Position numbers and translations under genes: made by a program
Notes under the pieces: generated by a model
What the model was told of the DNA's origin: nothing
What the model saw: the letters and a program-made list of their open reading frames with translations, nothing else
Database searches by the model: none
Assembly: GCF_022201045.2 (NCBI RefSeq)
Contig: NC_068562.1
Location: 9,840,001 to 9,904,000 of the forward strand
Origin: Citrus sinensis
Taxonomy: Eukaryota > Streptophyta > Magnoliopsida > Sapindales > Rutaceae
DNA length: 64,000 nt
Direction: 5' to 3'
Shown: positions 35,983 through 63,557 of the stretch, in pieces
Numbering within the stretch: position 1 is the stretch's first letter
How the letters are laid out: each line of letters starts with the position of its first letter

Positions 35983-37849
35983 CACCCCCCAACCAGCTTA
36001 TTGCTAGTCCCTAGCAAATGAAGCGAAAACAAAATTCAAATTCAAAATGATTTTTTTTTTTTTTAGAAACACTTGTGTTTATTCAATCAGATTAATGATA
36101 GCAATCAAATAAAAGTATAAGCATTATCTCCAGTCTAAAGCAACATCACACCCACATCAACCATCCACATGAATCAGCCCAGTAGACTTTGTTATAGCTA
36201 CTTTCAAGAATGACATGTCAAACCCCAAAATCTCACTGGAAGTAGTGACACTCTTACAAATAAATTAAACCCAATAAAAATAGTCACTCCAATGAATGGT
36301 AATTGAGAGAAAATAATGAAGAAGTGATATCACATGCTCTCACCAAGATGAAATAAATATGCCCTCAGCTTAAAAATAATACGATCTCAAGTCAAACAAA
36401 AACTGTTAGTCAACCCAATTTATTTATTTATTTTTTTTATATGCACCACTACATCTTTTTAGCCCATATAACTAGCTTCTACTTCAGATTATAGTTCCCT
36501 AAAATTAGGAAGGACTTTTATTAGGATGTAACGTAGGCTAGGGACATGGTTAACAAAGAAAGGAAATAAGGAAAACAAAGTGTATGTTTGAGAAAAATGC
36601 AAAGAATTTTTTTATTTTTTTATTTTTTGGAAGTTGCAAGGTGGATTTCACCTATTATTGTTATTTTTATTCTTTTGAAACAACAACTTTTGTTTTGTTG
36701 TTTTTTTTTTTTGTATAACTTCACTGAACAACATAATTATTTACATTTTCTCAAACATAAATAGGTGATGGAACTTATAAGATATCGGATAATACTCCAA
36801 ATCGGAGTGGGTCAAGATAATAAGTTGACAAAGAAAATGTTTTTTTTTTTTAAAGGCTCAAAAGGGTTAACTATGGATATTTAATAAAAGGGATGGCTAG
36901 AAAGGCTCAAACGGATCAAAGATGGCCTTTCCATCGTCTTTTAGGGCTCTAAATAACCTTCCATATCTACTAGTTAGATGGGCCTCCAAATGTAGCAACA
37001 CACTTTTTTTTCTTTTTTTTTTATTAAGGGTTAACTCAAAAGAAATCTAGAGATCGTGTATACAATAATAAACTGTTAAGCTGTATAAAGAATGGGCAAA
37101 AGGGTTACTCTCCAAGAAAAATGATAGGCTCAAAAACTCACTTGGTACTTATTATGACATGTTCATTCCTTCAAGCAACGCATATTTGTCTCCGACATCA
37201 ACATGTAGAGTAGCAAACATAATGTAAAATCACTTAAGACCCAAGATAATACAAATACTAAAATTTAAAATTAATCATGTCACCCAATGTTAAAACAAAT
37301 CACACAATTTTTTTTTTTAAACAACATTCTACCCCCCAACCTATTCTAAACATGAAAGGAAAATATGCATGCAGATATGTGAAAATGATGCATAAAAACT
37401 AATTAGAAAAGTTACACGTAAAATGATAGAAAACGAAAATAATTTTTTATTTTTTTTAAAGAAGATGCGTTTCTAGAGGAACTACACTCCATATTCAGCC
37501 ATCTTCGACTCAAAAGTTGGAAAATGTATATTGATAGAGGAGAAATTAAAAAGAAGAACAATAAACATAAACACATAATAAAGAAAAACAAAATGTCTGA
37601 ATTTTTTTTTTTTTTTACGATGAAGATGCGTTTCTAGAGTCACTACACTCCATATTCAGCCATCTTCGACACAAAAAGTTAGCAACAATTAGTTTCTACA
37701 ACAAAAATTAGTAAAAACTTAACCAAAATTCCACAATTGTCGACTATTCCCTCCCCCCAACCAGAACGAAACATTGTCCTCAATGTTTGAAAGGAAAGAA
37801 GTAGAGTTTAGAAGACATCACCTGGGTGGTGCAACACAGAAAACAATAT
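35983..37849 (-). other. 3' non-coding region of element H with PPT-like tracts
   Basis: About 1.87 kb between the LOG-like stop and the 3' LTR, collinear with 47204-49156 of element C. It holds complements of GGTTGGGGGG at about 35983, 37330 and 37750. It also has the paired GAAGATG...CATCTTC hairpin repeats (about 37465-37670) and T/A-rich runs. No coding signal was seen. Confidence 0.7.
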
Positions 37850-38437
37850 TTACAAGCGAAGAGTTAAATCTAATTTGTACTTCTTACTGCGGCTACTGTT
37901 ACCATCATTATTTGGGCGCTCCAACACAAAGGTCCAGGGGTCTGGCTCCGGTTTATAAGCTTGTAACAGATCAAGTAGCTCATTAGCAGTGTGAGCACAA
38001 ATAAAGAGTTTTTTCACATTAGCAGAAATGAAATAGTTTTTTATTGCATGGTTAAGAAATGCGATAAAGCCATCATAAAAGTTATTGACATTTAACAAAC
38101 CGATGGGTTTTTGGTGGATGTGCAGATGGGCCCAAGATGCTAGCGTGATAAGTGCCTCTAGTGTTGCAAGATCTCCTGGAAGGAAAATAAAAGCATCAGC
38201 ATGATTAAGCATTTTAGTTATTCTTTCTTGCATACCTGAGACGACTAACTCTTCTCCAGTTGATGAGTCAGACGAACTGCCCAATGATTTTAGAACTCTT
38301 GGGATGATGCCTAACACTTGACTTCCTCTGATAAAAGCTGCTTCTGAGACCATTTTTGATAATCCTCGGTTACCTCCTCCATACACAAAGTGTAATTTTC
38401 TCTCTGCTATGCTTCGACCAAGATCTATGGCTGCCTC
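37850..38437 (-). pseudogene. LOG-like gene of element H, C-terminal part (split by insertion)
   Basis: It encodes EAAIDLGRSIAERKLHFVYG through DLTLRL, continuing the N-terminal part at 56312-56397. The two parts share the 5-bp target GAGGC. The altered motif PGDLATLEA is present as in the C copy. Here the frame reads through the position of the C copy's stop, adding about 21 residues (RPNNDGNSSRSKKYKLDLTL region). An ATG in the adjacent antisense LTR puts a 208-codon open frame (37850-38476) over the junction. The frame is open throughout, so only the insertion breaks it. Confidence 0.8.
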
Positions 38438-39472
38438 TGTTGACCGATGATGTGGCATTGACTGATGAGGTGTCACGATCCTGTTGGACTAAAATTCTTA
38501 TGTACTGTTGATGGTGACGTGGCAGCATATCAGTGGACGAAAAATCTCGCGTACGGTGCATGCATCACACAGGATTATTTTCAACCAAACCGCGTTACTG
38601 TTCATCCGGGTCAAACCGCGTTACTGTTCAAAGTCGGGTCAAACCGTGTTACTGTTCATCCGCGTGGTCAAACGTGGACTGTTGACTGATGACGTGGCGC
38701 AATCCTGAGCGTCCAAACTGTTTTTAATCCGATGGCCATGATTTACTCCATGTATCTATAAAAAGGGGGCCTCCCCCCCCTAATTTGATATCTCTGAATC
38801 CATTTTTGGGATCCATTTTCTGTAATTCCCTCTCCATCTTGTATTTTCTTCGTATTTTAATAAATTTCCATTTTGCCCCTAGTTCAATTATGAGTGGCTG
38901 ATTTTCTTTCAAGCTTGGGTTGAAGGTGAAGTCTCAACATGTGTCATGGGCTTAATTTGGTAAATTTATTTTCTCTTCCCCTCTAGTTTTTGTGGATGTT
39001 TTGACTTCTCGTCGACAAATAATACTAATCTTGTCTAGTACCGCCTTGGTTTCACCGGCCCCCTAGTACAAGGTTATTATTATTTGGCACGATAAGCCCT
39101 TAGCACCATATTGATTAGAGCGTGGTTCATGAGGTGTGGATTCCCCCCTCATGATTTAATTGGCATTAATACGGATTATTTAGCCCATGATGCATGTTGA
39201 TACGGATCCAGATACCCAAGTACGTCATTTCAATAGAATTATCTTCAATTTATTCTCTCCATTGCAATTCCAATTTTAGAATTTATTCTCGCCATTTTAA
39301 TTTAAGTATTAGCATATTCCAAATCATTTCCCCCATAAATCCAACTACCCATTTACAAAATTAATTCTATATATAATTAAAATCCACCTCCTCGTGGGAT
39401 CGACACTCGTCACCATTAGTCTATACTACAATAGATTCGTGCGCTTGCGAGTACATTAAAATTTGCACAACA
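38438..39472 (+). repeat. 5' LTR of element C, lacking about 350 bp of its 5' end
   Basis: It starts TGTTGACCGATG. The first TGTTGA matches an LTR terminus, then the sequence jumps to the position equivalent to 49508 in the 3' LTR. The shared TTGA at the joint suggests microhomology. W-boxes, two TGACGTGGC sites and the TATA box (TATAAAAA near 38757) are retained. Confidence 0.9.
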
Positions 39473-39478
39473 AGTTTT

Positions 39479-39496
39479 TGGCGCCGTTGCCGGGGA
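39479..39496 (+). other. Primer-binding site of element C
   Basis: TGGCGCCGTTGCCGGGGA is an 18-nt complement of the 3' end expected for plant tRNA-Asp, as in Athila elements. The leader from 39497 to 39819 is T/A-rich with no ORF. Confidence 0.88.
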
Positions 39497-39819
39497 GGTA
39501 AGTAATTTTAATTCATAGAATTAATTTTTGTGAATAATTTCTTTTATTTGTTTTCTTGTATTTTTTTTAATTAAAAAAAAAAGAAAAAAAAAGTGAATCT
39601 ACATATAAAGGTTAGTATTTCTTTTTTTTTTTCTCTTCTTTAACATTTTGTAATTTAATTTTCAATTTATTTTTCTTTGTAATTTATTTTATTTTATTTT
39701 AATTTAATTTTTAGTTAATTTCTTTCACGTATTTATTTTTGTGTATTTTTATAGAAAGGTTTTAATAGCGCAATAAGGTTAGTATCGTAATTTCTCTCTC
39801 TTCTTTATTTTTATTTATT

Positions 39820-42800
39820 TTGTTCCCATCTTTATTTTTATTTTATTTGTTTTGCATGCATGGTCGAAGGTCATTATTACCCAATCTTGAACCTATAGAC
39901 CTTGAACTTGAGAAAACACTTCGCACACACAAACAAATTAAAAATAAAATGGATTTGCAACCACAGGAGAGGCCATTTAAGGACTACTTCAGTCCTTTAG
40001 CTAATTTGAGCACATCATGCATAAGATACCCAAATGTAGCTGCTAGGAGCTTTGAACTAAAACCTAGTGTGCTAAATTGTCTTCCCACATTTTATGGCCT
40101 AGAAAATGAGGATCCATATAATCATTTGAATGATTTTCATGCCATTTGTCAAACATTCAAATATGAGAATTTTTCAGATGATGATGTTAAACTTAGACTA
40201 TTCCCATTTTCTTTAAAAGATAGAGCTCGTTCATGGTTAAATACTTTACCTGCTAATAGCATTTCATCATGGGAACAAATGGTAACAAAATTTTTGAATA
40301 AATATTTCCCAGTGCATAAAACCAATGCTATTCGCAGGGAAATCTCGGAGTTTGCCCAAAGAGAGGACGAGCAGTTTTTCGAAACATGGGAGCGATTCAA
40401 TGGGCTACTCTTGAAGTGTCCACATCATGGGTACGAGAAATGGCACCAATGCCAATACTTTTTGGAGGGATTATTGCCGAATGTGCAAGAATGGCTAATG
40501 GCAACAAGTGGAGGAGAGCTAATGTCAAAAAGTGCGTCAGAAATTTGGGAATTCTTCCAGCGACAAGCGGACAATTCCCAACAACGGAGTCGATCACTCA
40601 GGAATACTAGAAGGATTAAAGGAGTGAATGAGGTTCACATTGGCGAGTCAACTTCGGGAATCAAAGAAGTCAAGGAGATGGTTGAAGGTCTTGCTCGACA
40701 AATAGCATCATTATCGACTGCTAAATCAACAGAGGCACATGACCATGACTCATACTCAGATCAAGCCAATGCCATAGGTGTAATGAGAAAACCATCGAAT
40801 TACAACCCATACTCCAACACATATAACCCTGGATGGAGAGACCACCCCAATTTTTCATGGTCTCAAGGATTCCAACAGAATGGACCAGCAGCTCCAGCTC
40901 CACCAATGCAACAAATTGCTCAAAATTCTCAAGCCTCTCAGCCCCCATTTAGACCATACAATCAAAACCAGAATTACTCTCAACCCAGACCATGGGAGGA
41001 TTCATTCCAGAATCTCAAGAATCTTACTCACTCCACGATTGAGCAACAGAACCGCACCATTGATGGACTACGAAATGAGTTGAGAGCAGGCTTCAACTCA
41101 CAAGCTCAATCAGTTTCAAGCCTCGAGAAGATGGTGGGACAACTTGCTTCTTCAGTTCAGACCTTGGCAATGACCGTTGAGAAAGGTAAGTTTCCAAGTC
41201 AACCAGTGCCTAACCCTAAAGGAGTGCATGAAGCAAGTACCAGTTCACCACAGCAGCATGGAGAGGTCAAAGCAGTAATGACCTTGCGAAAAGGAAAGGA
41301 AGTCGACAACAAAGTGGAGATGCCGGTGACAAAAGAAAATCAAATTGTACATGTGAATGTTGAGGACTCATCACCGGAGGAGAAAGAAGAAACTAACCCA
41401 CGAGAATATGTTCCGAAAGCTCCATTTCCTCAGAGGTTAGCTAAAGGAAAAAAGGGAAAATCCACAGGTGAGATTCTTGAAATCTTCAAACAGGTAAGTG
41501 TTAACATCCCTTTGCTTGATGCTATTAAACAAGTTCCATCTTATGCCAAGTTTCTTAAAGACCTTTGTACTAAAAAGAGAAATATGCATGTTCAAAAGAA
41601 GGCATTTTTAACAGAAAACGTTAGTTCTATACTCCAACATAAAATTCCTTTAAAATGCAAAGACCCAGGCTCCCCCACTATCTCATGTAGTATAGGGAAC
41701 CACACAATTGAGAATGCTTTGTTGGATTTAGGAGCTAGTGTAAATCTTTTGCCTTACTCTGTATTCGTGAAACTTGGATTGGGAGAATTACACCCAACTC
41801 CAGTGGTGTTACAGCTTGCAGATCGGTCCACGAAAATACCTCGTGGTATTGTGGAGGACGTGCTTATCCAGGTAGACAAATTTTATTGTCCTGTTGACTT
41901 CATTGTAATTGACACTCAACCAATACAGGATTCAAGGAAGCACATCCCCATTATTCTAGGCCGACCTTTCTTGGCAACTGCGGATGCTCACATTCAATGC
42001 AGGACTGGAAATATGCAGTTGTCTTTCGGCAACATGACTATGGAGCTGAACATCTTCAACATTGCCAAACAACCTCACAGTGCAGATGATGGAATTGTTG
42101 ATGTGGATTTAATTGAAGCATTAGTTGATGATACTTTTGTTTCAAACCTTAGTGATGATCCTTTACAAACATGTTTAACTCACTTTGGTTTGGATTTTGA
42201 TGTTGACAGATCGGTCGATGAGGTCAACGCCCTGCTTGACTCAGCACCATCTATGGATACTAATAAATGGAAGTCAAGAGTTGAACAACTAGCACCATCA
42301 GAGAAGCAACTCATTCCATCATCAGAATCACCACCGAAACTCGAGCTCAAACCATTGCCCAACACTTTGGAATATGCATTTTTGGGAGAAGAAAGCACTC
42401 TGCCGGTAATCATCTCATCATCCCTCAATGACGAACAAAAAGGTAAGTTGTTAGATGTTTTAAAAGAGCATAAAAGGACATTAGGATGGACCATAGCAGA
42501 CATAAAAGGTATAAACCCAGTAGACTGCATGCATTACATTCACCTTGATGAAAATGCTAAAACTACTAGGGAGATGCAACGTCGGTTAAATCCTAACATG
42601 AAAGAAGTTGTTAGAACAGAAGTCCTTAAGCTATTAGACGCAGGTATCATTTACCCCATTTCTGATAGTTCATGGGTCAGTCCTGTACAAGTTGTCCCCA
42701 AAAAGTCAGGAGTCACAGTAGTTACGAATGCTGATAATGAATTGATACCCACTAGAGTAACTACATGATGGCGTGTATGCATTGATTATAGAAAATTGAA

Positions 42801-45243
42801 TTCTGTCACACGTAAAGACCATTTTCCTTTACCATTTATTGATCAAATGCTTGATAGATTAGCAGGCCATGAATTTTATTGCTTTCTAGATGGTTACTCA
42901 GGATATAATCAGATTCCCATAGCACCAAAAGATCAAGAGAAAACTACTTTCACTTGCCCTTTTGGCACATTTGCATATAGGAGAATGTCATTTGGATTAT
43001 GTAATGCACCTGCTACATTTCAACGATGCATGTTGAGCATTTTTTCTGATATGGTTGAACGATTCCTTGAAGTCTTTATGGATGATTTTTCTGTCTTTGG
43101 TGACTCATTTGATCAATGTTTACATCATCTAACACTAGTTCTGCAGAGATGTATCGAGAAGAACTTGATCTTAAATTGGGAGAAATGCCATTTTATGGTA
43201 AAACAAGGTATTGTTCTCGGTCACATCATTTCGAGCAAAGGTATTGAGGTTGACAAAGCCAAGGTGGATCTCATTTCTAATCTTCCTCCACCTAAAACAA
43301 TCAGAGAAGTAAGATCTTTCCTTGGGCATGCTGGTTTTTATAGACGTTTCATTAAAGATTTTAGTAAAGTTTCTAGACCCTTATGCAATTTACTTGCTAA
43401 GGATGCACCTTTTGTCTTTAATGATTCATGTCTTGTGGCATTTGAAAAATTAAAGCATTTGTTGACATCATCACCCATCATTCAGGCCCCAAACTAGAGC
43501 TTACCATTTGAGCTAATGTGTGATGCATTTGATTATGCAGTAGGAGCAGTATTAGGACAAAGAGTTGATCGAATTCCCCATGTTATTTACTATGCTAGTA
43601 TGACATTAAATGATGCACAGTTGAACTATTCAACTACTGAAAAAGAAATGCTAGCAGTAGTGTTTGCATTAGAAAAATTTCGATCGTATCTCATTGGTTG
43701 TAAAATAATTATATTCACGGATCATGCTGCTCTTAAATATCTTCTCACAAAGAAAGATGCAAAAGCCAGACTAATTCGTTGGGTGTTACTTTTGCAGGAA
43801 TTTGACTTGGAATTCAAAGATAAAAAAGAGACAGAAAATGTTGTGGCGGACCACCTCTCTCGTCTCCATTTTGACACAATTATAGAACAATTACCATTAA
43901 ATGAGTCATTTCCAGATGAACAATTAATGAGTGTGGAAGTATTACCTTGGTATGCTGATATAGTTAATTATCTTGTTACAGGTAAACTTCCAGAGCATTG
44001 GACCAAGCAAGACAAGGCTAAATTCTTTGCAGAGATAAAGAATTTCTTTTGGGATGACCCGTATTTGTTCAAGTATTGTGCGGATCAAATTGTTAGACGA
44101 TGTGTCCCAGAAAGTGAAATTCAGAATATCCTTTCATTCTGCCATGAACAAGCTTGTGGAGGCCATTTCAGTGCTAAGAAGACAGCGACTAAAGTTTTAC
44201 AATGTGGTTTCTATTGGCCATCTATATTTCGAGACGCTTACACTTTCTGTTCTTCATGTGATAGGTGTCAACGAATGGGAAGCATTACACGAAGGAACAT
44301 GATGCCACTAAATCCAATTTTAGTGGTTGAGATTTTTGACGTATGGGGTATCGACTTCATGGGACCCTTTTCCCCTTCTTTTGGCCATCAATACATATTG
44401 GTTGGTGTTGACTACGTCTCAAAATGGGTAGAAGCAATTCCATGTAGAACCAATGATCACAAGGTGGTGATAGGATTTTTGAAAAACAACATTGTCTCAC
44501 GCTTTGGATTCCCACGAGCGATAATCAGTGATGGTGGTGCCCACTTTTGTAACAAAGCATTCAAAGCTCTTTTGACAAAGTATTCAATCACACACAAAGT
44601 GGCAACTCCGTATCATCCGCAAACCAGTGGCCAAGTTGAGATATCCAATCGAGAAATAAAGCACATATTAGAAAAAACGGTGAGGCCAGACAGGAAAGAT
44701 TGGTCATTAAGACTTGATGATGCATTATGGGCATATAGAATGGCTTTCAAGACCCCGATTGGGATGTCACCCTACAGGCTAGTGTATGGAAAAGCTTGCC
44801 ACCTACCTGTGGAACTCGAGCATCGTGCGTATTGGGCCATCAAGAAATTCAATTTTGACATGCAGCAAGCCAGCTCAGAAAGAAGATTACAGCTGGCAGA
44901 ACTTGAAGAAATTCGCAATGACGCGTACGAAAATGCCAAGATTTACAAGCAACGAATGAAAGTCTTCCATGACAAGCAAATTATGAGAAAATCTTTCACT
45001 CCAGGTCAGAAAGTGCTTTTGTTCAATTCTCGCTTGCACCTATTTCCAGGTAAGTTACGCTCTCGTTGGTCTGGTCCATTTATTGTTCATACTGTTTTTC
45101 CACATGGGGCAATTGAAATTAAGGACTCAAAGAACGGTGTCACGTTTAAAGTTAATGGTCAAAGATTAAAGCCATATCTAGAATACCAATCACATGGAGA
45201 AGACACCGAAATAAATTTGAGTGACCCACCAGATTTGAATTGA
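39820..45243 (+). pseudogene. Element C gag-pol polyprotein with two in-frame stops
   Basis: One frame of about 1807 codons. Gag includes ERPFKDYFSPLANLST and a gag domain (LFPFSLKDRARSWLNTLP), followed by a Gln/Asn-rich linker. The start may be the internal ATG at 39856 or 39949. The protease motif is DLGASVNLLP (about 41724), with DLG as usual in this lineage. RT has DGYSGYNQIPIAP and FMDDFS (about 43075). RNase H starts at 43516 with [14 protein letters not shown]. Integrase has an HHCC finger ([10 protein letters not shown] ... CDRCQ), [18 protein letters not shown] and [10 protein letters not shown], then a C-terminal [14 protein letters not shown] region. Lesions are TGA at 42766 and TAG at 43495. 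H and E have different lesions. Confidence 0.93.
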
Positions 45244-45344: not shown

Positions 45345-45578
45345 ATGAGTACCTTACTTAGACTGTTCCTCCTGAACATTCTTAAACCACTTCAACGTGT
45401 CAAAACTCATCTCAAAAGACAAATTCAATTTTGTAAAACACAACGCATTTGGGCTCTACAACCACCAGAGTTAGTAGCCTATGTTGAGGGTTTAGAACGC
45501 CAACTCCGAGACATTGAGAGAAGTGTTTACGACATCCAGTTGGAGCTTGAGGTAAATTCAATAAGAGGACGATTTTAA
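45345..45578 (+). CDS. Small basic/coiled-coil ORF of the retroelement, 77 aa
   Basis: It lies 100 bp after pol and starts MSTLLRLFLLNIL. A hydrophobic N-terminus is followed by a basic stretch (QRVKTHLKRQ) and a predicted coiled coil (PELVAYVEGLERQLRDIERS), ending SIRGRF. The same protein is open in H (57435-57668) with few changes. I do not recognise a family. A GAG|GTAAAT donor-like site near its end raises the possibility that it is a 5' exon spliced to a downstream ORF. Confidence 0.5.
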   Translation: MSTLLRLFLLNILKPLQRVKTHLKRQIQFCKTQRIWALQPPELVAYVEGLERQLRDIERSVYDIQLELEVNSIRGRF

Positions 45579-45719: not shown

Positions 45720-46277
45720 ATGGACAGAAACGAGATTCTAGCGAAGCTTCACAAGCGATTCCCTTCACTTCCTCAGAATGCCCTCCTTACGATCTATAAA
45801 GCTCGGTCCGAACGCATGCGATTACTCATGAGGAATAACATACCTGCTGACATCCGTTGGTTAATCGAGGCTAAAGTACGATCGGCAGGTGAGTTACCTC
45901 CAAAATTTATTGCATACATGCCTGGTTGTGGTAAAGGAAATTATGCAAGAAAACGACGAGCTCGAAGAATTTCTGTTGCTTGTCATAAGTGTGCCAGAAT
46001 GAGTTGTAATAAAAACCCATGTTCTTTAGGAATGATGTCTGATAACAGGGAAGATAAGATTCAATTCATTAGGGATGGCTTGAATAAGGAGTCATTGGAT
46101 GATATCCTTTTGTCTCTTGAAACGCATCCCAGTGGATATGTGCAAGGAGCGATTCTCCAGTTATGGCCATTATTCCAGAAAGAGCATGCACGATATAGTC
46201 TCGGGAATCTGACTATAAACGACCCTGTTTGCCTGTTTATAAGAAAACTGGATGGGAAGCCTATCCTCGACCCATAG
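45720..46277 (+). CDS. 185-aa basic, cysteine-cluster protein of the retroelement (viral NABP-like)
   Basis: It starts MDRNEILAKLHKRFPSLP. Residues 70-83 are strongly basic (GCGKGNYARKRRARR), directly before a four-Cys cluster with spacing C-x2-C-x4-C-x4-C (Cys 88, 91, 96, 101). An acidic/helical tail (about 105-185) includes EDKIQFIRDGLNKESLDD. The basic stretch, the adjacent cysteine finger and the following 'FI.DG' segment resemble the cysteine-rich nucleic-acid-binding proteins encoded at the 3' end of carlavirus-type plant RNA viruses. This is a by-eye match. The ORF is intact in both C and H (56736-57293), with about six amino-acid differences. Nucleic-acid binding is predicted, and any wider role is unknown. 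It could instead be a lineage-specific zinc-finger ORF. Confidence 0.6.
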   Translation: MDRNEILAKLHKRFPSLPQNALLTIYKARSERMRLLMRNNIPADIRWLIEAKVRSAGELPPKFIAYMPGCGKGNYARKRRARRISVACHKCARMSCNKNPCSLGMMSDNREDKIQFIRDGLNKESLDDILLSLETHPSGYVQGAILQLWPLFQKEHARYSLGNLTINDPVCLFIRKLDGKPILDP

Positions 46278-46600: not shown

Positions 46601-47203
46601 ATGGCAGCTACTCCCAATAGACAATTCAAGAACATTTGTGTGCTTTCTGGATTTACCTATGGCAAACATAAAGAGTTCGTTGAGGCAGCCATAGATCTTG
46701 GTCGAAGCATAGCAGCGAGAAATTTACATTTGGTGTATGGAGGAGGTAACCGAGGGTTATCAAAAATGGTCTCCGAAGCAGCTTTTATCAGAGGAAGTCA
46801 AGTGTTAGGCATCATCCCAAGAGTCCTAAAACCATTGGGCAGTTCGTCTGACTCATCAACTGGAGAAGAGTTAGTCGTCTCAGGTATGCAAGAAAGAATA
46901 ACTGAAATGCTTAATCATGCTGATGCTTTTGTTTTCCTTCCAGGAGATCTTGCAACACTAGAGGCACTTATGACACTAGCATCTTGGGCCCATCTGCACA
47001 TCCACCAGAAACCCATCGGTTTGTTAAATGTCAATAACTTTTATGATGGCTTTATCGCATTTCTTAACCATGCAATAAAAAACTACTTCATTCCTTCTAA
47101 TGTGAAAAAACTTTTTATTTGTGCTCACACTGCTAATGAGCTACTTGATATGTTACAAGCTTATAAACCGGAGCCAGACCCCTGGACCTTTGTGTTGGAG
47201 TGA
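46601..47203 (+). CDS. Retrotransposon-borne LONELY GUY (LOG)-like protein, intronless, altered active-site motif
   Basis: The 200-aa product follows plant LOG, the cytokinin riboside 5'-monophosphate phosphoribohydrolase, over nearly its whole length. Matches include KNICVLSGFTYGKHKEF, LVYGGGNRGLSKMVSEA (45-60), VLGIIPRVLKPLG (68-80), VVSGMQERITEM with the conserved Arg99, DAFVFLPG, and WAHLHIHQKPIGLLNVNNFY. The family signature PGGxGTxxE is here PGDLATLEA (114-122), so two glycines and the final catalytic Glu are replaced. Plant LOG genes have several introns and this copy has none, which fits capture through RNA. I use the ATG at 46601 (MAATPNRQ) because H also starts there; an in-frame ATG at 46562 exists. 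It occupies the place of the envelope-like ORF of other Athila elements. Lysine-decarboxylase-like paralogues of the same fold are the alternative. Confidence 0.85.
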   Translation: MAATPNRQFKNICVLSGFTYGKHKEFVEAAIDLGRSIAARNLHLVYGGGNRGLSKMVSEAAFIRGSQVLGIIPRVLKPLGSSSDSSTGEELVVSGMQERITEMLNHADAFVFLPGDLATLEALMTLASWAHLHIHQKPIGLLNVNNFYDGFIAFLNHAIKNYFIPSNVKKLFICAHTANELLDMLQAYKPEPDPWTFVLE

Positions 47204-49156
47204 CCAAATAATGATGGTAACAGTAGCCGCAGTAAGAAGTACAAATTAGATTTAACTCTCCGCCTGTAAATATTTTCTTCTGTGTTGCACCACCCAGGTG
47301 ATGTCTTCTAAACTCTACTTCTTTCCTTTCAAACATTGAGGACAATGTTTCGTTCTGGTTGGGGGGAGGGAATAGTCGACAATTGTAGAATTTTGGTTAA
47401 GTTTTTACTAATTTTTGTTGTAGAAACTAACTGTTGCTAACTTTTTGTGTTGAAGATGGCTGAATATGGAGTGTAGTGACTCTAGAAACGCATCTTCATC
47501 GTTTATAAAAAAAAAAAAATCAGACATTTTCTTTTTCTTTATTATGTGTTTATGTTTATTTTTCTTCTTTTTAATTTCTCCTCTATAAATATACATTTTT
47601 CAACTTTTGAGTCGAAGATGGCTGAATATGGAGTGTAGTTCCTCTAGAAACGCATCTTCTTTAAAAAAAAAAATCATTTTCGTTTTCTATCATTTTACGT
47701 GTAACTTTTCTAATTAGTTTTTATGCATCATTTTCACATTTCTGCATGCATATTTTCCTTTCATGTTTAGAATAGGTTGGGGGGTAGAATGTTGTTTAAA
47801 CAAAAAAAAAAAATTTTTTGTGATTTGTTTTAACATTGGGTGACATGATTAATTTTAAATTTTAGTATTTGTATTATCTTTGGTCTTAAGTGATGTTACA
47901 TTATGTTTGCTACTCTACATGTTGATGTCGGAGACATATATGAGTTGCTTGAAGGAATGAACATGTCATAATAAGTACCAAGTGAGTTTTTGAGCCTATT
48001 ATTTTTCTTGGAGAATAACCCTTTTGCCCACTCTTTATACAGCTTAGCAGTTTATTATTTTATACACGATCTCTAAATTACTTTTGAGTTAACCCTAAAA
48101 AAAAAATTGTAAAATAAAAAAAAAGAAAAAAGAGTGTGTTGCTACATTTGGAGGCCCATCTAACTAGTAGATATGGAAGGTTATTCAGAGCCCTAAAAGA
48201 CGATGGAAAGGCCATCTTTGATCCGTTTGAGCCTTTCTAGCCATCCCTTTTATTAAATATCCATAGTTAACCCTTTTGAGCCTTTAAAAAAAAAATATAT
48301 TTTCTTTGTCAACTTATCATCTTGACCCACTCCGATTTGGAGTATTACCCGATGTCTTATAAGTTCCATCACCTATTTATGTTTGAGAAAATGTAAATAA
48401 TTATGTTGTTAAGTGAAGTTATGCCAAAAAAAAAAAAAAACAAAAACAAAAACAAAAACAAAAGTTGTTGTTTCAAAAGAATAAAAATAGGTGAAATCCA
48501 CCTTGCAACTTCCAAAAAAAAAAAAAAAATTTCTCTGCATTTTTCTCAAACATACACTTTGTTTTCCTTATTTTCCTTCTTTGTTAGCCATGTCCCTAGC
48601 CTACGTTTCATCCTAATAAAAGTCCTTCTTAATTTTAGGGAACTATAGTTTGAAGTAGAAGCTAGTTATATGGGCTAAAAAGATGTAGTGATGCATAATT
48701 AAAAAAAAAAAAGATAAATAAAGTGGGTTGACTAACATTTTATTTGACTTGAGATCGTATTATTTCTAAGCTGAGGGCATATTTATTTCATCTTGGTGAG
48801 AGCATGTGATATCACTTCTTTATTATTTTCTCTCTCAATTACCATTCATTGGAGTGACTATTTTTATTGGGATTAATTTATTTGTGAGAGTGTCACTACT
48901 TCCAGTGAGATTTTGGGGTTTGACATGTCATTCTTGAGAGTAGCTAAAACAAAGTCTACTGGGCTAATTCATGTGGATGGTTGATGTGGGTGTGATGTTG
49001 CTTTAGACTGGAGATAATGCTTATACTTTTATTTGAGTGTTATCATTAATCTGATGGAATAAATACGAGTGTTTCTATTAAAACAAAAAAAAAATTATTT
49101 TGAATTTTGTTTTCGCTTTATTTGCTAGGGACTAGCAATAAGCTGGTTGGGGGGTG
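47204..49156 (+). other. 3' non-coding region of element C with repeats and polypurine tracts
   Basis: About 1.95 kb without a supported gene. GGTTGGGGGG tracts occur at 47357, 47775 and 49145. Two copies of a roughly 46-bp sequence starting GAAGATGGCTGAATATGGAG and ending CATCTTC lie at 47452-47497 and 47614-47659. Each can form a stem from GAAGATG/CATCTTC. Collinear with 35983-37849 in H. Confidence 0.7.
49145..49156 (+). other. Polypurine tract before the 3' LTR of element C
   Basis: GGTTGGGGGGTG abuts the LTR start TGTTGAG at 49157, the expected site of plus-strand priming. Confidence 0.85.
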
Positions 49157-50540
49157 TGTTGAGTATTAGAAAATGCATATTTATAAAGGAGAAAACCGTC
49201 ATTTTACATTTTAAGTCTTACTAACAACCCTTACTTTTATATATTTAACCTTCTTGTGATTTAATTACATGTGTTTTATTTTAATTAAGTATTTTATGTA
49301 TTTTAGGGGCATTATAGTCATTTCACAATAAAGGAGAGATCAGACGGCAAAACGGACATCACTTTTGAACTCAGGACGGTCGAAAACCTTAGGAGGAGCA
49401 TAAAAGGAAAAATGGCACTATTCACATGTACGGTACTATTCACGTGTACGGTACTGTATACGTTACTGTTCACGACACTGTTCACATAGACGGATGATGA
49501 CGTGGCATTGACCGATGATGTGGCATTGACTGATGAGGTGTCACGATCCTGTTGGACTAAAATTCTTATGTACTGTTGATGGTGACGTGGCAGCATATCA
49601 GTGGACGAAAAATCTCGCGTACGGTGCATGCATCACACAGGATTATTTTCAACCAAACCGCGTTACTGTTCATCCGGGTCAAACCGCGTTACTGTTCAAA
49701 GTCGGGTCAAACCGTGTTACTGTTCATCCGCGTGGTCAAACGTGGACTGTTGACTGATGACGTGGCGCAATCCTGAGCGTCCAAACTGTTTTTAATCCGA
49801 TGGCCATGATTTACTCCATGTATCTATAAAAAGGGGGCCTCCCCCCCCTAATTTGATATCTCTAAATCCATTTTTGGGATCCATTTTCTGTAATTCCCTC
49901 TCCATCTTGTATTTTCTTCGTATTTTAATAAATTTCCATTTTGCCCCTAGTTCAATTATGAGTGGCTGATTTTCTTTCAAACTTGGGTTGAAGGTGAAGT
50001 CTCAACATGTGTCATGGGCTTAATTTGGTAAATTTATTTTCTCTTCCCCTCTAGTTTTTGTGGATGTTTTGACTTCTCGTCGACAAATAATACTAATCTT
50101 GTCTAGTACCGCCTTGGTTTCACCGGCCCCCTAGTACAAGGTTATTATTATTTGGCACGATAAGCCCTTAGCACCATATTGATTAGAGCGTGGTTCATGA
50201 GGTGTGGATTCCCCCCTCATGATTTAATTGGCATTAATACGGATTATTTAGCCCATGATGCATGTTGATACGGATCCAGATACCCAAGTACGTCATTTCA
50301 ATAGAATTATCTTCAATTTATTCTCTCCATTGCAATTCCAATTTTAGAATTTATTCTCGCCATTTTAATTTAAGTATTAGCATATTCCAAATCATTTCCC
50401 CCATAAATCCAACTACCCATTTACAAAATTAATTCTATATATAATTAAAATCCACCTCCTCGTGGGATCGACACTCGTCACCATTAGTCTATACTACAAT
50501 AGATTCGTGCGCTTGCGAGTACATTAAAATTTGCACAACA
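49157..50540 (+). repeat. 3' LTR of element C, complete
   Basis: 1384 bp, TGTTGAGTATTAG to TTGCACAACA. It carries three TGACGTGGC sites, W-boxes and the TATA box TATAAAAA (near 49826). It is followed directly by E pol sequence (GTCTGCC). Confidence 0.95.
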
Positions 50541-53500
50541 GTCTGCCACAACATTTTCTGTCCCTTTCTTATCTTTGAATTCCAAGTCAAACTCCTGCAA
50601 AAGTAACACCCAACGAATTAGTCTGGCTTTTGCATCTTTCTTTGTGAGAAGATATTTAAGAGCAGCATGATCTGTGAACACGATTATTTTACAACCAATG
50701 AGATAAGATCGAAATTTCTCTAATGCAAACACTACTGCTAGCATTTCTTTTTCAGTAGTTGAATAGTTCAACTGTGCATCATTTAATGTCATACTAGCAT
50801 AGTAAATAACGTGGGGAATTCGATCAACTCTTTGTCCTAATACTGCTCCTACTGCATAATCAGATGCATCACACATGAGCTCAAATGGTAAGCTCCAGTT
50901 TGGGGGCTGAATGATGGGTGATGATGTCAACAAATGCTTTAATTTTTCAAACGCAACAAGACATGAATCATTAAAGACAAAAGGTATATCCTTAGCAAGT
51001 AGATTGCATAAGGGTCTAGAAACTTTGCTAAAATCTTTAATGAAACGTCTATAAAAACCAGCATGTCCAAGGAAAGATCTTACTTCTCTGATTGTTTTAG
51101 GTGGAGGAAAATTAGAAATGAGATCCACCTTGGCTTTGTCAACCTCAATACCTTTGCTCGAAATGATGTGACCGAGAACAATACCTTGTTTTACCATAAA
51201 ATGGCATTTCTCCCAATTTAAGATCAAGTTCTTCTCGATACATCTCTGCAGAACTAGTGTTAGATGATGTAAACATTGATCAAACGAGTCACCAAAGACA
51301 GAAAAGTCATCCATAAAGACTTCAAGGAATCGTTCAACCATATCAGAAAAAATGCTCAACATGCATCGTTGAAATGTAGCAGGTGCATTACATAATCCAA
51401 ATGGCATTCTCCTATATGCAAATGTGCCAAAAGGGCAAGTGAAAGTAGTTTTCTCTTGATCTTTTGGTGCTATGGGAATCTGATTATATCCTGAGTAGCC
51501 ATCTAGAAAGCAATAAAATTCATGTCCTGCTAATCTATCAAGCATTTGATCAATACATGGTAAAGGAAAATGGTCTTTACGTGTGACAGAATTCAACTTT
51601 CTATAATCAATGCATACACGCCATCCTGTAGTCACTCTAGTGGGTATCAATTCATTATCAGCATTCGTAACTACTGTAACTCCTGACTTTTTGGGGACAA
51701 CTTGTACAGGACTGACCCATGAACTATCAGAAATGGGGTAAATGATACCTGCATCTAATAGCTTAAGGACTTCAGTTCTAACAACTTCTTTCATATTAGG
51801 ATTTAACCGACGTTGCATTTCCCTAGTAGATTTAGCATTTTCATCAAGGTGAATGTAATGCATGCAGTCTATTGGGTTTATACCTTTAATGTCTGCTATG
51901 GTCCATCCTAATGCTCCTTTGCGCTCTTTTAAAACATCCAACAACTTACCTTTTTGTTCGTCATTTAGGGATGATGAGATGATTACCGGCAGAGTACTTT
52001 CTTCTCCCAAAAATGCATATTCCAATGTGTTGGGCAATTGTTTGAGCTCGAGTTTCGGTGGTGATTCTGATGATGGGATGAGTTTCTTCTCTGATGGTGC
52101 TAGTTGTTCAACTCTTGACTTCCATTTATTAGTGTCCATGGATGGTTCTGAGTCAAGCAGGGTGTTGACCTCATCGACCGATCTGTCAATATCAAAATCC
52201 AAACCAAAACATGTTTGTAAAGGATCATCACTAAGCTTTGAAACAAAAGTATCATCAACTAATACTTCAATTAAATCCACATCAACAATTCCATCATCTG
52301 CACTGTGAGGTTGTTTGGCAATGTTGCAGATGTTCAGCTCCATAGTCATGTTGCCGAAGGACAACTGCATATTTCCAGTCCTGCATTGAATGTGAGCATC
52401 CGCAGTTGCCAAGAAAGGTCGGCCTAGAATAATGGGGATGTGCTTCCTTGAATCCTGTATTGGTTGAGTGTCAATTACAATAAAATCAACAGGAAAATAA
52501 AACTTGTCTACCTGGATAAGCACGTCCTCCACAATACCACGAGGTATTTTCGTGGACCGATCTGCAAACTGTAACACCACTGGAGTTGGGTGTAATTCTC
52601 CAAGTCCAAGTTTCACAAATACTGAATAAGGCAACAAATTTACACTAGCTCCTAAATCCAACAAAGCATTCTCAATTGTGTGGTTCCCTATACTACATGA
52701 GATAGTGGGGGAGCCTGGGTCTTTGCATTTTAAAGGAATTTTATGTTGGAGTATAGAACTAACGTTTTCTGTTAAAAATGCCTTCTTTTGAACATGCATA
52801 TTTCTCTTTTTAGTACAAAGGTCTTTAAGAAACTTAGCATAAGATGGAACTTGCTTAATAGCATCGAGCAAAGGGATGTTAACACTTACCTGTTTGAAGA
52901 TTTCGAGAATCTCACCTGTGGATTTTCCCTTTTTGCCTTTTGTTAACCTCTGAGGAAATGGAGCTTTCGGAACGTATTCTCGTGGGTTGGTTTCTTCTTT
53001 CTCCTCCGGTGATGAGTCTTCAACATTCACAGGTACAATTTGATTTTCTTTTGTCACCGGCATCTCCACTTTGTTGTCGATTTCTTTTCCTTTTCGTAAG
53101 GTCATGACTGCTTTGACCTCTCCATGCTGCTGTGGTGAACTGGTACTTGCTTCATGCACTCCTTTAGGGTTAGGTACTGGTTGACTTGGAAACTTACCTT
53201 TCTCAACGGTCATTGCCAAGGTCTGAACTGAAGAAGCAAGTTGTCCCACCATCTTCTCGAGGCTTGAAACTGATTGGGCTTGTGAGTTGAAGCCCACTCT
53301 CAATTCATTTCGTAGTCCATCAATGGTGCGGTTCTGTTGCTCAATCGTGGAGTGAGTAACATTCTTGAAATTTTGGAATGCATCCTCCCATGGTCTGGGT
53401 TGAGAGTAGTTCTGATTCTGATTGAATGGTCTAAATGGGGGCTGAGAGGCTTGAGGAATTTGTTGCATTGGTGGAGCTGGAGCTGCTGGTCCATTCTGTT

Positions 53501-54579
53501 GGAGTCCTTGAGACCATGCAAAAATTGGGGTGGTCTCTCCATCCAGGGTTATATGTGTTGGAGTATAGGTTGTAGTTTGATGGCTTTCTCATTATACCTA
53601 TGGCATTGGCTTGGTCTGGATATGAGTCATGGTCATGTGGTTCTGTTGATTTTGCAGTCGATAACGATGCTATTTGTCGAGCAAGACCTTCAACCATCTC
53701 CTTGACTTCTTTGATTCCCGAAGTTGACTCGCCAATTTGAACCTCATTCACTCCTTTAATTCTTCTAGTAGTCCAGAGTGATCGACTCCGTTGTTGGGAA
53801 TTATCTGCTTGTCGCTGGAAGAATTCCCAAATCTCTGATGCACTTTTTGACATTAGCTCTCCTCCACTCGTTGCCATTAGCCATTCTTGCACATTCGGCA
53901 ATAATCCCTCCAAAAAGTATTGGCATTGGTGCCATTTCTCATACCCATGATGTGGACACTTCAAGAGTAGCCCATTGAATCGCTCCCATGTTTCGAAAAA
54001 TTGCTCGTCCTCCCTTTGTGTAAACTCTGAAATTTCCCTGCGAATAGCATTGGTTTTATGCACTGGGAAATATTTATTCAAAAATTTCGTTACCATTTGT
54101 TCCCATGATGCAATGCTATTAGCAGGCAATGTATTAAGCCATGAACGAGCTCTATCCTTTAAAGAAAATGGGAATAATCTAAGCTTTACATCATCATCTG
54201 AAAAATTTTCGTATTTAAAAGTTTGACAAATAGCATGAAAATCATTCAGATGATTATATGGATCCTCATTTTCTAGGCCATAAAATGTGGGGAGACAATT
54301 TAGCACACTAGGTTTTAGTTCAAAGCTCCTAGCAGCTACATTTGGGTATCTTATGAATGATGTGCTTAAATTAGCTAAAGGACTGAAGTAGTCCTTAAAT
54401 GGCCTCTCCTGTGGTTGCAAATCCATTTTATTTTTAACGTGTTTGTGTGTGCGAGGTGTTTTTTCTAATTCAAGGTCTATAAGTTCAAGATTAGGTAATA
54501 ATGACCTACGACCATGCATGCAAAATAAATAAAATAAAAATAAAGATGCAAACAAAACAAAAAATAAAGATGGGAACAA
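50541..54579 (-). pseudogene. Element E gag-pol, 3'-truncated, one frameshift
   Basis: Gag runs from 54579 (or the in-frame ATGs downstream) to a 1-nt insertion near 53519. The frame then continues open through protease (DLGASVNLLP), RT (FMDDFS) and RNase H to the junction at 50541. After the junction, translation runs about 19 codons into antisense LTR of C (stop at 50484). Unlike C and H, no nonsense codon is seen in the RT/RNase H part. Confidence 0.88.
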
Positions 54580-54904
54580 AACAAATAAAAATAAAGAAGA
54601 GTGAGAAATTACGATACTAACCTTATTGCGCTATTACAACCTTTCTATAAAAATACACAAAAATAAATACGTGAAAGAAATTAACTAAAAATTAAATTAA
54701 TAAGATAAACAAAAAAAATTACAAAGAAAAATAAATGGAAAATTAAATTACAGAATTTTAAAGAAGAGAAAAAGAAAAGAAATACTAACCTTTAAATGTA
54801 GATTCATTTTTTTTTTCTTTTTTTTTAATAATAAAAAAAATACAAGAAAACAAATAAAAGAAATTATTCACAAAAATTAATTCTATGAATTAAAATTACT
54901 TACC

Positions 54905-54922
54905 TCCCCGGCAACGGCGCCA
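54905..54922 (-). other. Primer-binding site of element E
   Basis: The complement of TGGCGCCGTTGCCGGGGA, six bases from the LTR end. The stretch 54580-54904 is the A/T-rich leader without an ORF. Confidence 0.88.
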
Positions 54923-54928
54923 AAAACT

Positions 54929-56311
54929 TGTTGTGCAAATTTTAATGTACTCGCAAGCGCACGAATCTATTATAGTATAGATCAATGGTGACGAGTGTCG
55001 ATCCCACGAGGAGGTGGATTTTAATTGTGTAGAATTAATTTTTGTGAATGGGTGATTGGATTTGTGGTGGAAATGATTGGAATATGCTAAAACTTAAATT
55101 AAAATGGCGAGAATAAATTCTAAAATTGGTATTAAAATGGTGAGAATAAATTGAAGAGAATTCTATTGAAATGACGTACTTGGGTATCTAGATCCGTATC
55201 AACATGCATCATGGGCTAAATAATCCGTATTAATGCCAATTAAATCATGAGGGGGGAATCCACACCTCATGAACCACGCTCTAATCAATATGGTGCTAAG
55301 GGCTTATCGTGCCAAATAATAATAACCTTGTACTAGAGGGCCGGTGTAACCAAGGCGGTACTAGACAAGATTAGTATTATTTGTCGACGAGAAGTCAGAA
55401 CATCCACAAAAACTAGAGGGGAAGAGAAAATAAATTTACCAAATTAAGCCCATGACACATGTTGAGACTTCACCTTCAACCCAAGCTTGAAAGAAAATTA
55501 GCCACTCATAATTGAACTAGGGGCAAAATGGAAATTTATTAAAATACGAAAAAAATACAAGATGGAGAGGGAATTACAGAAAATGGATCCCAAAAGTGGA
55601 TTCAGAGATATCAAATTAGGGGGGGGAGGCCCCCTTTTTATAGATACATGGAGTAAATCATGGCCATCGGATTAAAAACAGTTTGGACGCTCAGGATTGC
55701 GCCACGTCATCAGTCAACAGTCCACGGTTTGACCACGCGGATGAACAGTAACACGGTTTGACCCGACTTTAAACAGTAACGCGGTTTGACCCGGATGAAC
55801 AGTAACGAGGTTTGGTTGAAAATAATCCTGTGTGATGCATGCACCGTACGCGAGATTTTTCGTCCACTGATATGCTGCCACGTCACCATCAACAGTACAT
55901 AAGAATTTTAGTCCAACAGGATCGTGACACCTCATCAGTCAATGCCACATCATCGGTCAATGCCACATCATCATCCGTTTATGCGAACAGTGTCGTGAAC
56001 AGTAACGTATACAGTACCGTACACGTGAATAGTATCGTACATGTGAATAGTGCCATTTTTCCTTTTATGCTCCTCCTAAGGTTTTCGACCGTCCTGAGTT
56101 CAAAAGTGATGTCCGTTTTGCCGTCTGATCTCTCCTTTATTGTGAAATGACTATAATGCCCTTAAAATACATAAAATACTTAATTAAAATAAAACACATG
56201 TAATTAAATCACAAGAAGGTTAAATATATAAAAGTAAGGGTTGTTAGTAAGACTTAAAATGTAAAATGACGGTTTTCTCCTTTATAAATATGCATTTTCT
56301 AACACTCAACA
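54929..56311 (-). repeat. 5' LTR of element E
   Basis: 1383 bp with complete termini (TGTTGTGCAAATT left, CACTCAACA right). It contains the same promoter block as the other LTRs. Confidence 0.95.
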
Positions 56312-56397
56312 GCCTCAACGAACTCTTTATGTTTGCCATATGTAAATCCAGAAAGCACACAAATGTTCTTGAATTGTCTATTGGGAGTAGCTGACAT
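56312..56397 (-). pseudogene. LOG-like gene of element H, N-terminal part (split by insertion)
   Basis: It encodes MSATPNRQFKNICVLSGF to KEFVE and ends at the E LTR. The rest of the gene is at 37850-38437. The 5 bp GAGGC are present at both broken ends, the signature of a target-site duplication. Confidence 0.88.
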
Positions 56398-56735
56398 TGT
56401 GATACTTCTCAAAAACAATTTGTGAGTGCTTGACAAAGAAAATCACATTTAAGAGTCTTGGTGATAGTGGGTCATAGTTGTGTATGAGGTCACATGTCCA
56501 TGTCAAATAACGCGTAAAGCACGTGGCTCGCGAGTCAAAAAGGAAACAGTAAAAAGGGAAAAACAAACAGTAATAAGGAAAAAGCAAACAGTAATAAAAT
56601 TATTAAGACAATAATGCAAACAATAAGACAATAGTGAAATAAAATAACAATAAAGTAAAAGGATATTTACAGGTAGTTGCGACTGTGGCTCACATCTTCC
56701 TCTGGTTTTACGTCCAGAAACGGCTTAAACGCCCT
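56398..56735 (-). other. T/A-rich spacer between LOG-like and 185-aa ORFs of element H
   Basis: Collinear with 46278-46600 of C, with a few extra repeats of the CAAACAGTAATAA type. The minus-strand frame at 56378-56587 is Phe-rich low complexity and is not called a gene. Confidence 0.5.
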
Positions 56736-57293
56736 CTATGGGTCGAGGATAGGCTTCCTATCCAGTTTTCTTATAAACTGGCAAACAGGGTCGTTTATAG
56801 TCAGATTCCTGAGACTATATCGTGCATGCTCTTTCTGGAATAATGGCCATAACTGGAGAATTGCTCCTTGCACATATCCACTGGGATGCGTTTCAAGAGA
56901 CAAAAGGATATCATCCAATGACTCCTTATTCAAGCCATCCCTAATGAATTGAATCTTATCTTCCCTGTTATCAGACACCATTCCTAAAGAACATGGGTTT
57001 TTATTGCAACTCATTCTGGCACACTTATGACAAGCAACAGAAATTCTTCGAGCTCGTCGTTTTCTTGCATAATTTCCTTTACCACAACCAGGCATGAATG
57101 CAATAAATTTTGGAGGTAACTCACCTGCCGATCGTACTTTAGCCTCGATTAACCAACGGATGTCAGCAGGTATGTTATTCCTCATGAGTAATCGCATGCG
57201 TTCGGACCGAGCTTTATAGATCGTAAGGAGGGCATTCTGAGGAAGTGAAGGGAATCGCTTGTGAAGCTTCGCTAGAATCTCGTTTCTGTCCAT
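56736..57293 (-). CDS. 185-aa basic, cysteine-cluster protein, copy in element H
   Basis: The same length and architecture as 45720-46277, with the basic NYARKRRARR stretch, four Cys in C-x2-C-x4-C-x4-C spacing and an intact stop. Differences from the C copy are few (for example Tyr/Phe near residue 66, Met/Val near 106, Gly/Arg near 162, Leu/Gln and Gly/Arg near the end). It stayed open although gag-pol of the same element has three stops. Confidence 0.6.
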   Translation of the reverse strand: MDRNEILAKLHKRFPSLPQNALLTIYKARSERMRLLMRNNIPADIRWLIEAKVRSAGELPPKFIAFMPGCGKGNYARKRRARRISVACHKCARMSCNKNPCSLGMVSDNREDKIQFIRDGLNKESLDDILLSLETHPSGYVQGAILQLWPLFQKEHARYSLRNLTINDPVCQFIRKLDRKPILDP

Positions 57294-57434
57294 ACCTTCG
57301 CCTCAGAATATCAGTTATTATGGGAAACTGAAGTAACCAACTTGATTGTCACGGAGTACCGTTATCCGCCATTTCACCGGGGTAACAAACTAAAGCACAC
57401 AAATAGAAAAACAAATTAAAACACACAAAGAAAA

Positions 57435-57668
57435 TTAAAATCGTCCTCTTATTGAATTTACCTCAAGCTCCAACTGGATGTCGTAAACACTTCTCTCAAT
57501 GTCTCTGAGTTGGCGTTCTAAACCCTCAACATAGGCTACTAACTCTGGTGGTTGTAGAGCCCAAATGCGTTGTGTTTTACAAAATTGAATCTGCCTTTTG
57601 AGATGAGTTTTGACACGTTGAAGTGGTTTAAGAATGTTCAGGAGGAACGGTCTAAGTATAAGACTCAT
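57435..57668 (-). CDS. Small basic/coiled-coil ORF, copy in element H, 77 aa
   Basis: Starts MSLILRPFLLNIL and ends SIRGRF. It is almost identical to 45345-45578. An in-frame upstream ATG at 57710 would add 14 hydrophobic residues that are not shared with C, so I prefer 57668. No known family. Confidence 0.5.
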   Translation of the reverse strand: MSLILRPFLLNILKPLQRVKTHLKRQIQFCKTQRIWALQPPELVAYVEGLERQLRDIERSVYDIQLELEVNSIRGRF

Positions 57669-57794
57669 GATTAAAAATGATAAGAGAAAACTTAATGGTA
57701 AAATAAACACACTTATGCAAAAACAATTTTAATTAGCAAAAGAATAATAATAAAAAGAAAGAAAGAAAAATCAAATCAACGAAAAGAAAAAAAA

Positions 57795-63215: not shown

Positions 63216-63533
63216 AACAAATAAAAATAAAGAAGATGGAGAAATTACGATACTAACCTTATTGCGCTATTAAAACCTTTCTATAAAAATACACAAAAAC
63301 AAATACGTGAAATAAATTAACTAAAAATAAATTAATAAGATAAACAAAAAAAAATTACAAAGAAAAATAAATTGAAAATTAAATTACAGAATTTTAAAGA
63401 AGAGAAAAAGAAAAGAAATACTAATCTTTAAATGTAGATTTATTTTTTATTTTTAATAATTAAAAAAAATACAAGAAAACAAATAAAAGAAATTATTCAC
63501 AAAAATTAATTCTATGAATTAAAATTACTTACC

Positions 63534-63551
63534 TCCCCGGCAACGGCGCCA
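63534..63551 (-). other. Primer-binding site of element H
   Basis: The complement of TGGCGCCGTTGCCGGGGA. The leader at 63216-63533 is A/T-rich and has no ORF. Confidence 0.88.
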
Positions 63552-63557
63552 AAAACT

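Follow-up and report, generated by a model that had tools for sequence, protein, structure and literature searches.

A LOG-like protein encoded between the integrase and the 3' LTR of an Athila-type retrotransposon family of Citrus sinensis has lost its active site, and the loss is itself conserved across copies, while the protein is under purifying selection. Both the loss and a C-terminal tail with the motif LxLxL are common to the subfamilies seen and are kept under purifying selection, which argues that the protein works as a non-enzymatic protein with a LOG fold. The best explanation that we can offer overall, and we hold it tentatively, is a host-directed accessory protein that has this fold, ends in a tail of the EAR type, and is part of a module at the 3' end of the element. 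All coordinates refer to the window, that is, the whole stretch of 64,000 nucleotides that was analysed.

The LOG-like frame, its element and its family

The element lies on the forward strand. Its 5' LTR (38440..39472) lacks the first 351 bp and has 2 mismatches in 1033 bp with respect to positions 49508-50540; since the two LTRs agree at 1031 of these 1033 aligned bases, the insertion is young. The primer-binding site, TGGCGCCGTTGCCGGGGA, at 39479..39496, is presumably of the tRNA-Asp type, as in Athila. It is followed by a gag-pol frame (39769..45243) that encodes gag, protease, RT, RNase H and integrase, and that has two in-frame stops in this copy: Pfam recognises gag, protease, RNase H and integrase, and RT was identified by eye from the translation. 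Next come a small accessory frame of 77 amino acids (45345..45578), a cysteine-rich frame of 185 amino acids related to Viral_NABP and Carla_C4 (45720..46277), and the LOG-like frame (46601..47203), which extends over 200 codons from its ATG at 46601 to a TGA stop at 47201-47203. The segment 47204..47269, behind this early stop, corresponds in other copies to the final 21 codons, which end in LDLTLRL, plus the stop codon. A polypurine tract (49145..49155) lies immediately 5' of the 3' LTR (49157..50540), whose ends read TGTTG...CAACA. The order gag, protease, RT-RNase H and integrase, with LTRs and a frame 3' of integrase, is the Athila layout of Ty3/gypsy elements; the assignment is based on domain order, LTRs and primer-binding site.

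An earlier note on this DNA, made from the sequence, held that the frame between integrase and the 3' LTR follows plant LOG proteins over nearly its full length, and the profiles agree. The Pfam family PF03641 (Lysine_decarbox) matches it with an E-value of 2.8e-28 and 99.2 bits, for a cut-off of 27; TIGR00730 does so with 1.8e-37 and 128.8 bits, for a cut-off of 96.35; and the best solved relative is AtLOG3 (At2g37210, structure 2a33), with 5.1e-46 over residues 7-190. The profile scores and the AtLOG3 alignment together exclude a chance match. The fold indicated by the profiles is the Rossmann fold of LOG/YgdH proteins, so the frame is not envelope-like, again in line with the note.

The same note maintained that the gene belongs to the family and is not a one-off host fragment, and the genome, which comprises 299.7 Mb in 11 contigs, confirms this. 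It contains at least 150 stop-free LOG places at 97-100% amino acid identity, these being the best of 2063 first-look candidates under a ranking that favours intact copies. At least 53 of the 75 scored integrase places, taken from 7793 first-look candidates, pair with a LOG at the right distance and on the right strand. This count is a lower bound, obtained with the best 150 LOG places and 13 rows added by eye: at least one of the 22 integrase misses, the place of copy L020, does have a LOG. Twenty copies were chosen by a non-coding 3' stretch, from 40 places that match it, and all 20 have the NABP-like frame and then LOG, in the same order. The LOG frame is open over 222 codons in 17 of them, has a stop in L021 and L026, and is broken in L015. 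The usual frame of the family is 222 codons long, and the window copy ends early, with its TGA at codon 201. A conserved splice acceptor before the ATG of LOG was considered and rejected, the CACAG of the window being absent from some other copies of subfamily A.

Among the matches listed, the top public matches of the frame are proteins of Citrus x changshan-huyou with 97-99% identity; the public homologues used here are the best 120 of 779, and relatives from outside Citrus may rank lower. Two gene models of Citrus x changshan-huyou (P0105 and P0206) are predicted fusions of NABP-like and LOG-like proteins, which may be joins made by the model or real fused frames. Scans of IMG/VR with the LOG-like frame, the NABP-like frame and the alignment of the latter's family found no relative. 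At the level of DNA, elements that bear LOG or NABP were read in this genome only.

An older element, on the reverse strand, also had the gene. Its 3' half, from LOG codon 28 into the 3' LTR, occupies 35302..38437, with the rest of this LTR at 32835-33549, behind an insertion, and its 5' half, up to LOG codon 29, occupies 56312..64000: the two blocks are halves of one and the same element. Its LOG frame was cut at codons 28-29 by another insertion on the reverse strand (50541..56311), which consists of a 5' LTR (54929-56311), gag and part of pol, and a 5-bp duplication, GAGGC, flanks this splitting insertion on either side. Given the split frame and the duplication, the claim that a second, independently inserted element carried the gene stands, except that the gene is now split and not intact. 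As we read the junctions, the window element inserted into the splitting element, and a deletion then removed part of both. The interval 33550-35301, in the LTR of the older element, is a 1.75 kb insertion on the reverse strand that starts with TGTTAACA and ends with CA; it has a short AAGGG duplication and resembles a small LTR-type insertion. The window also contains three tandem arrays, with units of 68 bp (and a 22/46 bp substructure) at 11822-12653, of 58 bp at 28431-28962, and of 63 bp at 34208-34373.

The origin of the gene can be approached through its introns. In our own reading, the host LOG gene L009 has six introns, one of them within the PGG of the motif, and the frame of the element has none. 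Capture through RNA is therefore likely, as the earlier note had proposed from the absence of host-type introns. In a tree of nine retroelement, nine host and four solved LOG sequences, the nine retroelement copies form one clade (support 100/100), whose stem has a length of 1.37 changes per column; these 22 sequences gave the clade no firm place among plant LOGs and pointed to no donor clade. The identity between retroelement and host LOGs is about 38-44%. A comparison with LOG exon 6 finds 10 places of the host genome at 54-100% identity, one of them with a stop, and the retroelement copies at 45% or less. L047 (C7:1366526), the host copy whose exon 6 is interrupted by an in-frame stop, has GTLEKLFE in place of GTLEELFE and is probably a LOG pseudogene; a close paralogue free of stops, L042 (C7:1413111), lies about 47 kb away.

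A lost active site under purifying selection

The state of the active site was established on 56 retroelement loci, the window included, of which 45 gave full-length LOGs that keep the frame and were used, while the other 11 are broken or partial and were left out; in-frame stops occur in 17 of the 45. The motif PGGxGTxxE is found in none of these copies, and the window reads PGDLATLEA. Residue numbers of the frame happen to coincide with those of CgLOG, and substitutions can be given directly: Gly116 is replaced by Asp, and Gly118 by Ala (once by Thr), in all 45 copies; position 122 is Glu in none, and Ala in 42; Lys100 has become Ile in 44 copies (one has a gap), and 44 also have Gln for His97 and Thr for Glu125. 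Other residues are retained, namely Arg99 (42 of 45), Thr119 (45) and Glu121 (43), and the YGGG core is mostly retained. The catalytic pair of Arg and Glu, R99 and E122 of CgLOG, is consequently incomplete, with its Glu missing throughout.

A comparable substitution can be seen in solved structures: the printed alignments of PDB chains 5zbj and 5zbk differ by Glu to Ala at the catalytic Glu site, and we take 5zbk to be a Pseudomonas LOG with a catalytic mutation. According to the passages on CgLOG in PMC4979012, the phosphate contacts the main chains of residues 116-118, Arg99 and Glu122 are proposed to form the catalytic pair, and replacing residues that bind AMP or take part in catalysis by Ala almost abolishes activity, except at Ser19. 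Because none of the 45 copies keeps the Glu or the two glycines of the phosphate stretch, and because such Ala substitutions are so damaging in CgLOG, the sequence argues against the cytokinin-activating enzyme that the earlier note had proposed. The public homologues point in the same direction: the motif is readable in 81 of the best 120 (of 779), the pattern used being unable to read the other 39, and it begins with PGD in 81 of 81 and has Glu at its ninth place in none. Even so, a pocket altered in this way might use a different nucleotide as its substrate.

The ratio dN/dS between copies was computed by the method of Nei-Gojobori, on pairs that are not independent and with eight copies of subfamily A fetched as best LOG matches. 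LOG has a ratio of 0.160 for the 313 pairs within subfamily A, of 0.166 for the 216 pairs between A and C (where dS is 0.95, near saturation) and of 0.611 within the old subfamily C, as in decaying copies. The integrase has a ratio of 0.087 within A, the NABP-like frame has ratios of 0.338 within A and 0.230 between A and C, and the frame of 77 amino acids has, between A and C, a dN of 0.28 and a saturated dS of 1.7. Variants were also counted in copies chosen by non-coding DNA. For LOG (19 copies, 11 distinct), 17 are nonsynonymous, 32 synonymous and 2 stops, giving p=2.4e-8 against a neutral share of 0.744; for integrase (17 copies, 9 distinct), the corresponding counts are 35, 90 and 3, with p=3e-28; for NABP (20 copies, 12 distinct), they are 14, 8 and 1, and p=0.19 is not significant. 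Shared and singleton variants show no difference for LOG (Fisher p=0.79) or for integrase (p=0.25), and the shared variants of NABP are less nonsynonymous than its singletons (Fisher p=0.027).

Within LOG, five stretches can be compared by counting codon differences between copy L012, from subfamily A, and eight copies that belong to other subfamilies and some of which, several in number, have in-frame stops. Residues 112-125, which contain the altered motif, have 10 nonsynonymous and 50 synonymous-only differences over 112 codons; residues 43-52 have 12 and 29 over 77 codons; residues 1-195 as a whole, 339 and 399 over 1550 codons; the linker 196-210, 66 and 15 over 120 codons; and the last 12 residues, 20 and 20 over 96 codons. 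With its ratio of 10 to 50, the altered motif is better preserved than the other four, and it is not rubble.

The family protein, with its 222 residues, ends in (S/R)KKYKLDLTLRL or a close variant. An LxLxL motif, of the EAR type, is encoded in 43 of the 45 copies, a count that takes in copies with in-frame stops, including the window copy, whose own frame stops before the tail; of the two others, one reads LDVTL, and the alignment of the second stops short of the tail. Among the 120 public homologues listed, 76 also have the motif within their final 12 residues, and the others include gene models that are truncated or end in another way. It is short, and a shuffled tail yields LxLxL in 2% of cases. 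The host protein L009, read to its end, has no such tail. TOPLESS is not bound by every LxLxL motif. The recruitment of TOPLESS/TPR co-repressors by LxLxL EAR motifs is described in the relevant passages of PMC10942257.

The neighbouring frames

A protein search with the frame at 45720-46277 gives 305 relatives at E<=0.01; of the best 120, 115 carry a precomputed Carla_C4 tag. Among the matches listed, relatives of 182 residues each are found in Xanthoceras, Acer and Populus, at 60-69% identity. The window copy itself remains below both Pfam cut-offs, with 16.4 bits against 20.9 for Carla_C4 and 14.0 against 23 for Viral_NABP. Eight NABP-bearing relatives were scanned: five are above each cut-off and seven above at least one, with top scores of 28.5 and 34.1 bits. 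In an alignment of 26 members picked from the best 120 of the 305, Viral_NABP and Carla_C4 each match 21 at E<=1e-3, the window copy not being among these, and no other family matched. A profile search of the PDB with this family returned nothing, with a best E-value of 0.41, and the structure model is poor (pLDDT 56, pTM 0.30) and unfit for fold comparison. Viral cysteine-rich proteins of this kind, or CRPs, including those of the citrus mandariviruses, are silencing suppressors and pathogenicity factors, as the passages on them in PMC12172455 state. Of the two halves of the locus, the one with the NABP-like frame may be the more novel.

The frame of 77 amino acids is recognisable in other subfamilies, from A to C, over its full or nearly full length, at 58-68% amino acid identity; its best conserved part is (V/I)YxxQLELEVNSxxGR. 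A search of Pfam with it gave no convincing match, the best E-value being 0.1.

Possible roles and known systems

The explanation that we tentatively favour is as follows. In the sample studied, the single origin, the lack of introns and the shared 3' position show that an Athila-type element captured an intron-free LOG copy once, before the present subfamilies split. The protein then lost its phosphoribohydrolase centre and gained its LxLxL tail. The LOG core would remain folded and in part shaped for a ligand, probably as a dimer, with the EAR-type tail attached. This tail may engage co-repressors of the TOPLESS class, in which case either chosen host genes would be repressed or the co-repressor would be drawn off the element. 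Together with the NABP-like and 77-amino-acid frames, the LOG-like frame would probably belong to a module at the 3' end with which the element counters host control. The accessory protein is, under this explanation, probably an EAR adaptor; the engagement of TOPLESS, the counter-defence role and the suppression of silencing by the NABP-like neighbour are inferred.

Several other roles must be weighed against this accessory protein. Should the enzyme be active, the element would raise free cytokinin in the cell that expresses it; the LOG fold, which spans nearly the whole protein, and the Arg99 kept in 42 of 45 copies speak for this, but Glu122, Gly116, Gly118, Lys100 and His97 are gone from nearly every copy or from all, Ala at residues for AMP binding or catalysis almost abolishes CgLOG activity (PMC4979012, CgLOG passages), and the score against NF058542, the NCBIfam equivalog for LOG, is 91.3 bits for a cut-off of 300, in a model that may be tuned to bacteria. 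We regard an active enzyme as very improbable. Even less credible is a functionless fragment carried along by recent amplification: many copies are indeed near-identical, 17 of the 45 full-length ones have in-frame stops and 11 of the 56 loci are broken or partial, but a dN/dS of 0.16 across subfamilies, at a dS near 1, and the p=2.4e-8 obtained on copies chosen by non-coding DNA argue against it. A structural or packaging role in the particle, in place of the env-like protein that other Athila elements have, agrees with the position of the frame, as the extra frames of Athila elements generally sit 3' of integrase; yet the fold gives no hint of such a role and the LxLxL tail would be unexplained, and we consider it quite unlikely.

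Two roles of the pocket and of the dimer, equal in our estimate, are unlikely without being as remote as these. An altered pocket might bind without cleaving, as a sponge or sensor, either a cytokinin nucleotide or a product of immune TIR proteins, and so hide the signal. In bacterial Thoeris, SLOG domains serve as sensors for the products of TIR proteins; here, the altered motif is better preserved than the other four stretches, with its 50 synonymous-only and 10 nonsynonymous differences, and Thr119, Glu121, Arg99 and most of YGGG persist; against this, Asp116 occupies the site of the phosphate backbone and may repel the phosphate. Alternatively, a dead subunit could pair with host LOGs and lower cytokinin activation. 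The LOG core is conserved, and in LOG proteins it is the dimer that builds the pocket (PMC4979012, structural passages), but an identity to host LOGs of only about 38-44% makes mixed dimers uncertain, and the tail is again left unexplained. Slightly less doubtful, although still on the unlikely side, is a virus-like counter-defence module in which a suppressor of flexivirus type would act beside a disarmed, nucleotide-binding LOG dimer, whose EAR tail would reprogram or titrate TOPLESS, and which would perhaps hide a nucleotide signal. If true, it would offer a retrotransposon a route to act on host transcription in trans.

Steinbauerova 2011 (Genetica 139:1543) is said to report two Athila-like elements similar to LOGL4. 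A YgdH/LOG domain in Gypsy consensuses of C. sinensis and C. clementina, and also in P. trichocarpa when a filter is dropped, figures in the passages on accessory domains of PMC9289625, which cites Steinbauerova 2011; for a LOG frame outside Citrus, in Populus, we rely on these passages. Since LOG/YgdH domains in Citrus Gypsy elements are thus already in print, the cargo is not of a new kind, contrary to what the earlier note had suggested. The published elements resemble ours in host genus, element class and domain, and they are very likely of the same family. The passages in question name the domain only: catalytic loss, selection, the LxLxL tail and the NABP-like neighbour were not found in them. 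With plant LOGs, that is, AtLOG3 (At2g37210), AtLOG8 (At5g11950), both named as in the plant passages of PMC4979012, and the nine host loci, the protein shares its fold, the YGGG core and the catalytic Arg; it differs from them by the loss of PGGxGTxxE, the absence of introns, the extra LxLxL tail and the long stem of 1.37 changes per column.

The NABP-like relatives resemble the CRPs of flexiviruses (carlavirus, allexivirus and mandarivirus; PF01623, PF05515) in having a basic patch and a cluster of Cys, with a profile match of up to about 85 residues in the relatives. Unlike those proteins, the NABP-like frame is encoded in an LTR element, and the window copy scores below the cut-offs. Other accessory domains that may blunt host control have been kept in retroelements: an AlkB-like demethylase in orchid Gypsy elements (PMC9289625, orchid passages) and virus-derived helicases in insect retrotransposons (PMC6338049, helicase passages). 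These are different domains, which have retained their enzymatic activity or motifs, in contrast with the LOG-like protein. In the open-licence papers covered, we found no retrotransposon LOG with an EAR tail, nothing on active-site loss, tail or NABP kinship of a retroelement LOG, and no text, in the relevant passages of PMC3136472 and PMC6338049 among others, that ties Viral_NABP/Carla_C4 or carlavirus CRPs to plant retrotransposons. The passages of PMC7145672 that count Citrus Athila copies were likewise found to make no mention of an extra frame or of cytokinin. What goes beyond the print that we found is the conserved loss of the active site, the purifying selection, the LxLxL tail, the NABP kinship and the frame of 77 amino acids.

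If the favoured explanation is right, a very abundant family of citrus retrotransposons has a long-conserved pseudoenzyme together with a suppressor of viral type, and the action in trans of plant LTR elements on host control becomes testable with two small proteins. The NABP-like relatives in Xanthoceras, Acer and Populus lead one to ask whether flexiviruses and retroelements have exchanged genes: if those rosid relatives also sit in such elements, Athila elements might have donated the flexivirus suppressor gene or received it early. There is also a consequence for annotation, as the names that databases give to homologues without the Glu (in the 81 readable of the 120 listed) may inflate counts of Citrus LOG genes that are taken from names. 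The name cytokinin riboside 5'-monophosphate phosphoribohydrolase is given in public databases to Citrus proteins of this retroelement family, for example to those of cluster P0003, which has 705 members.
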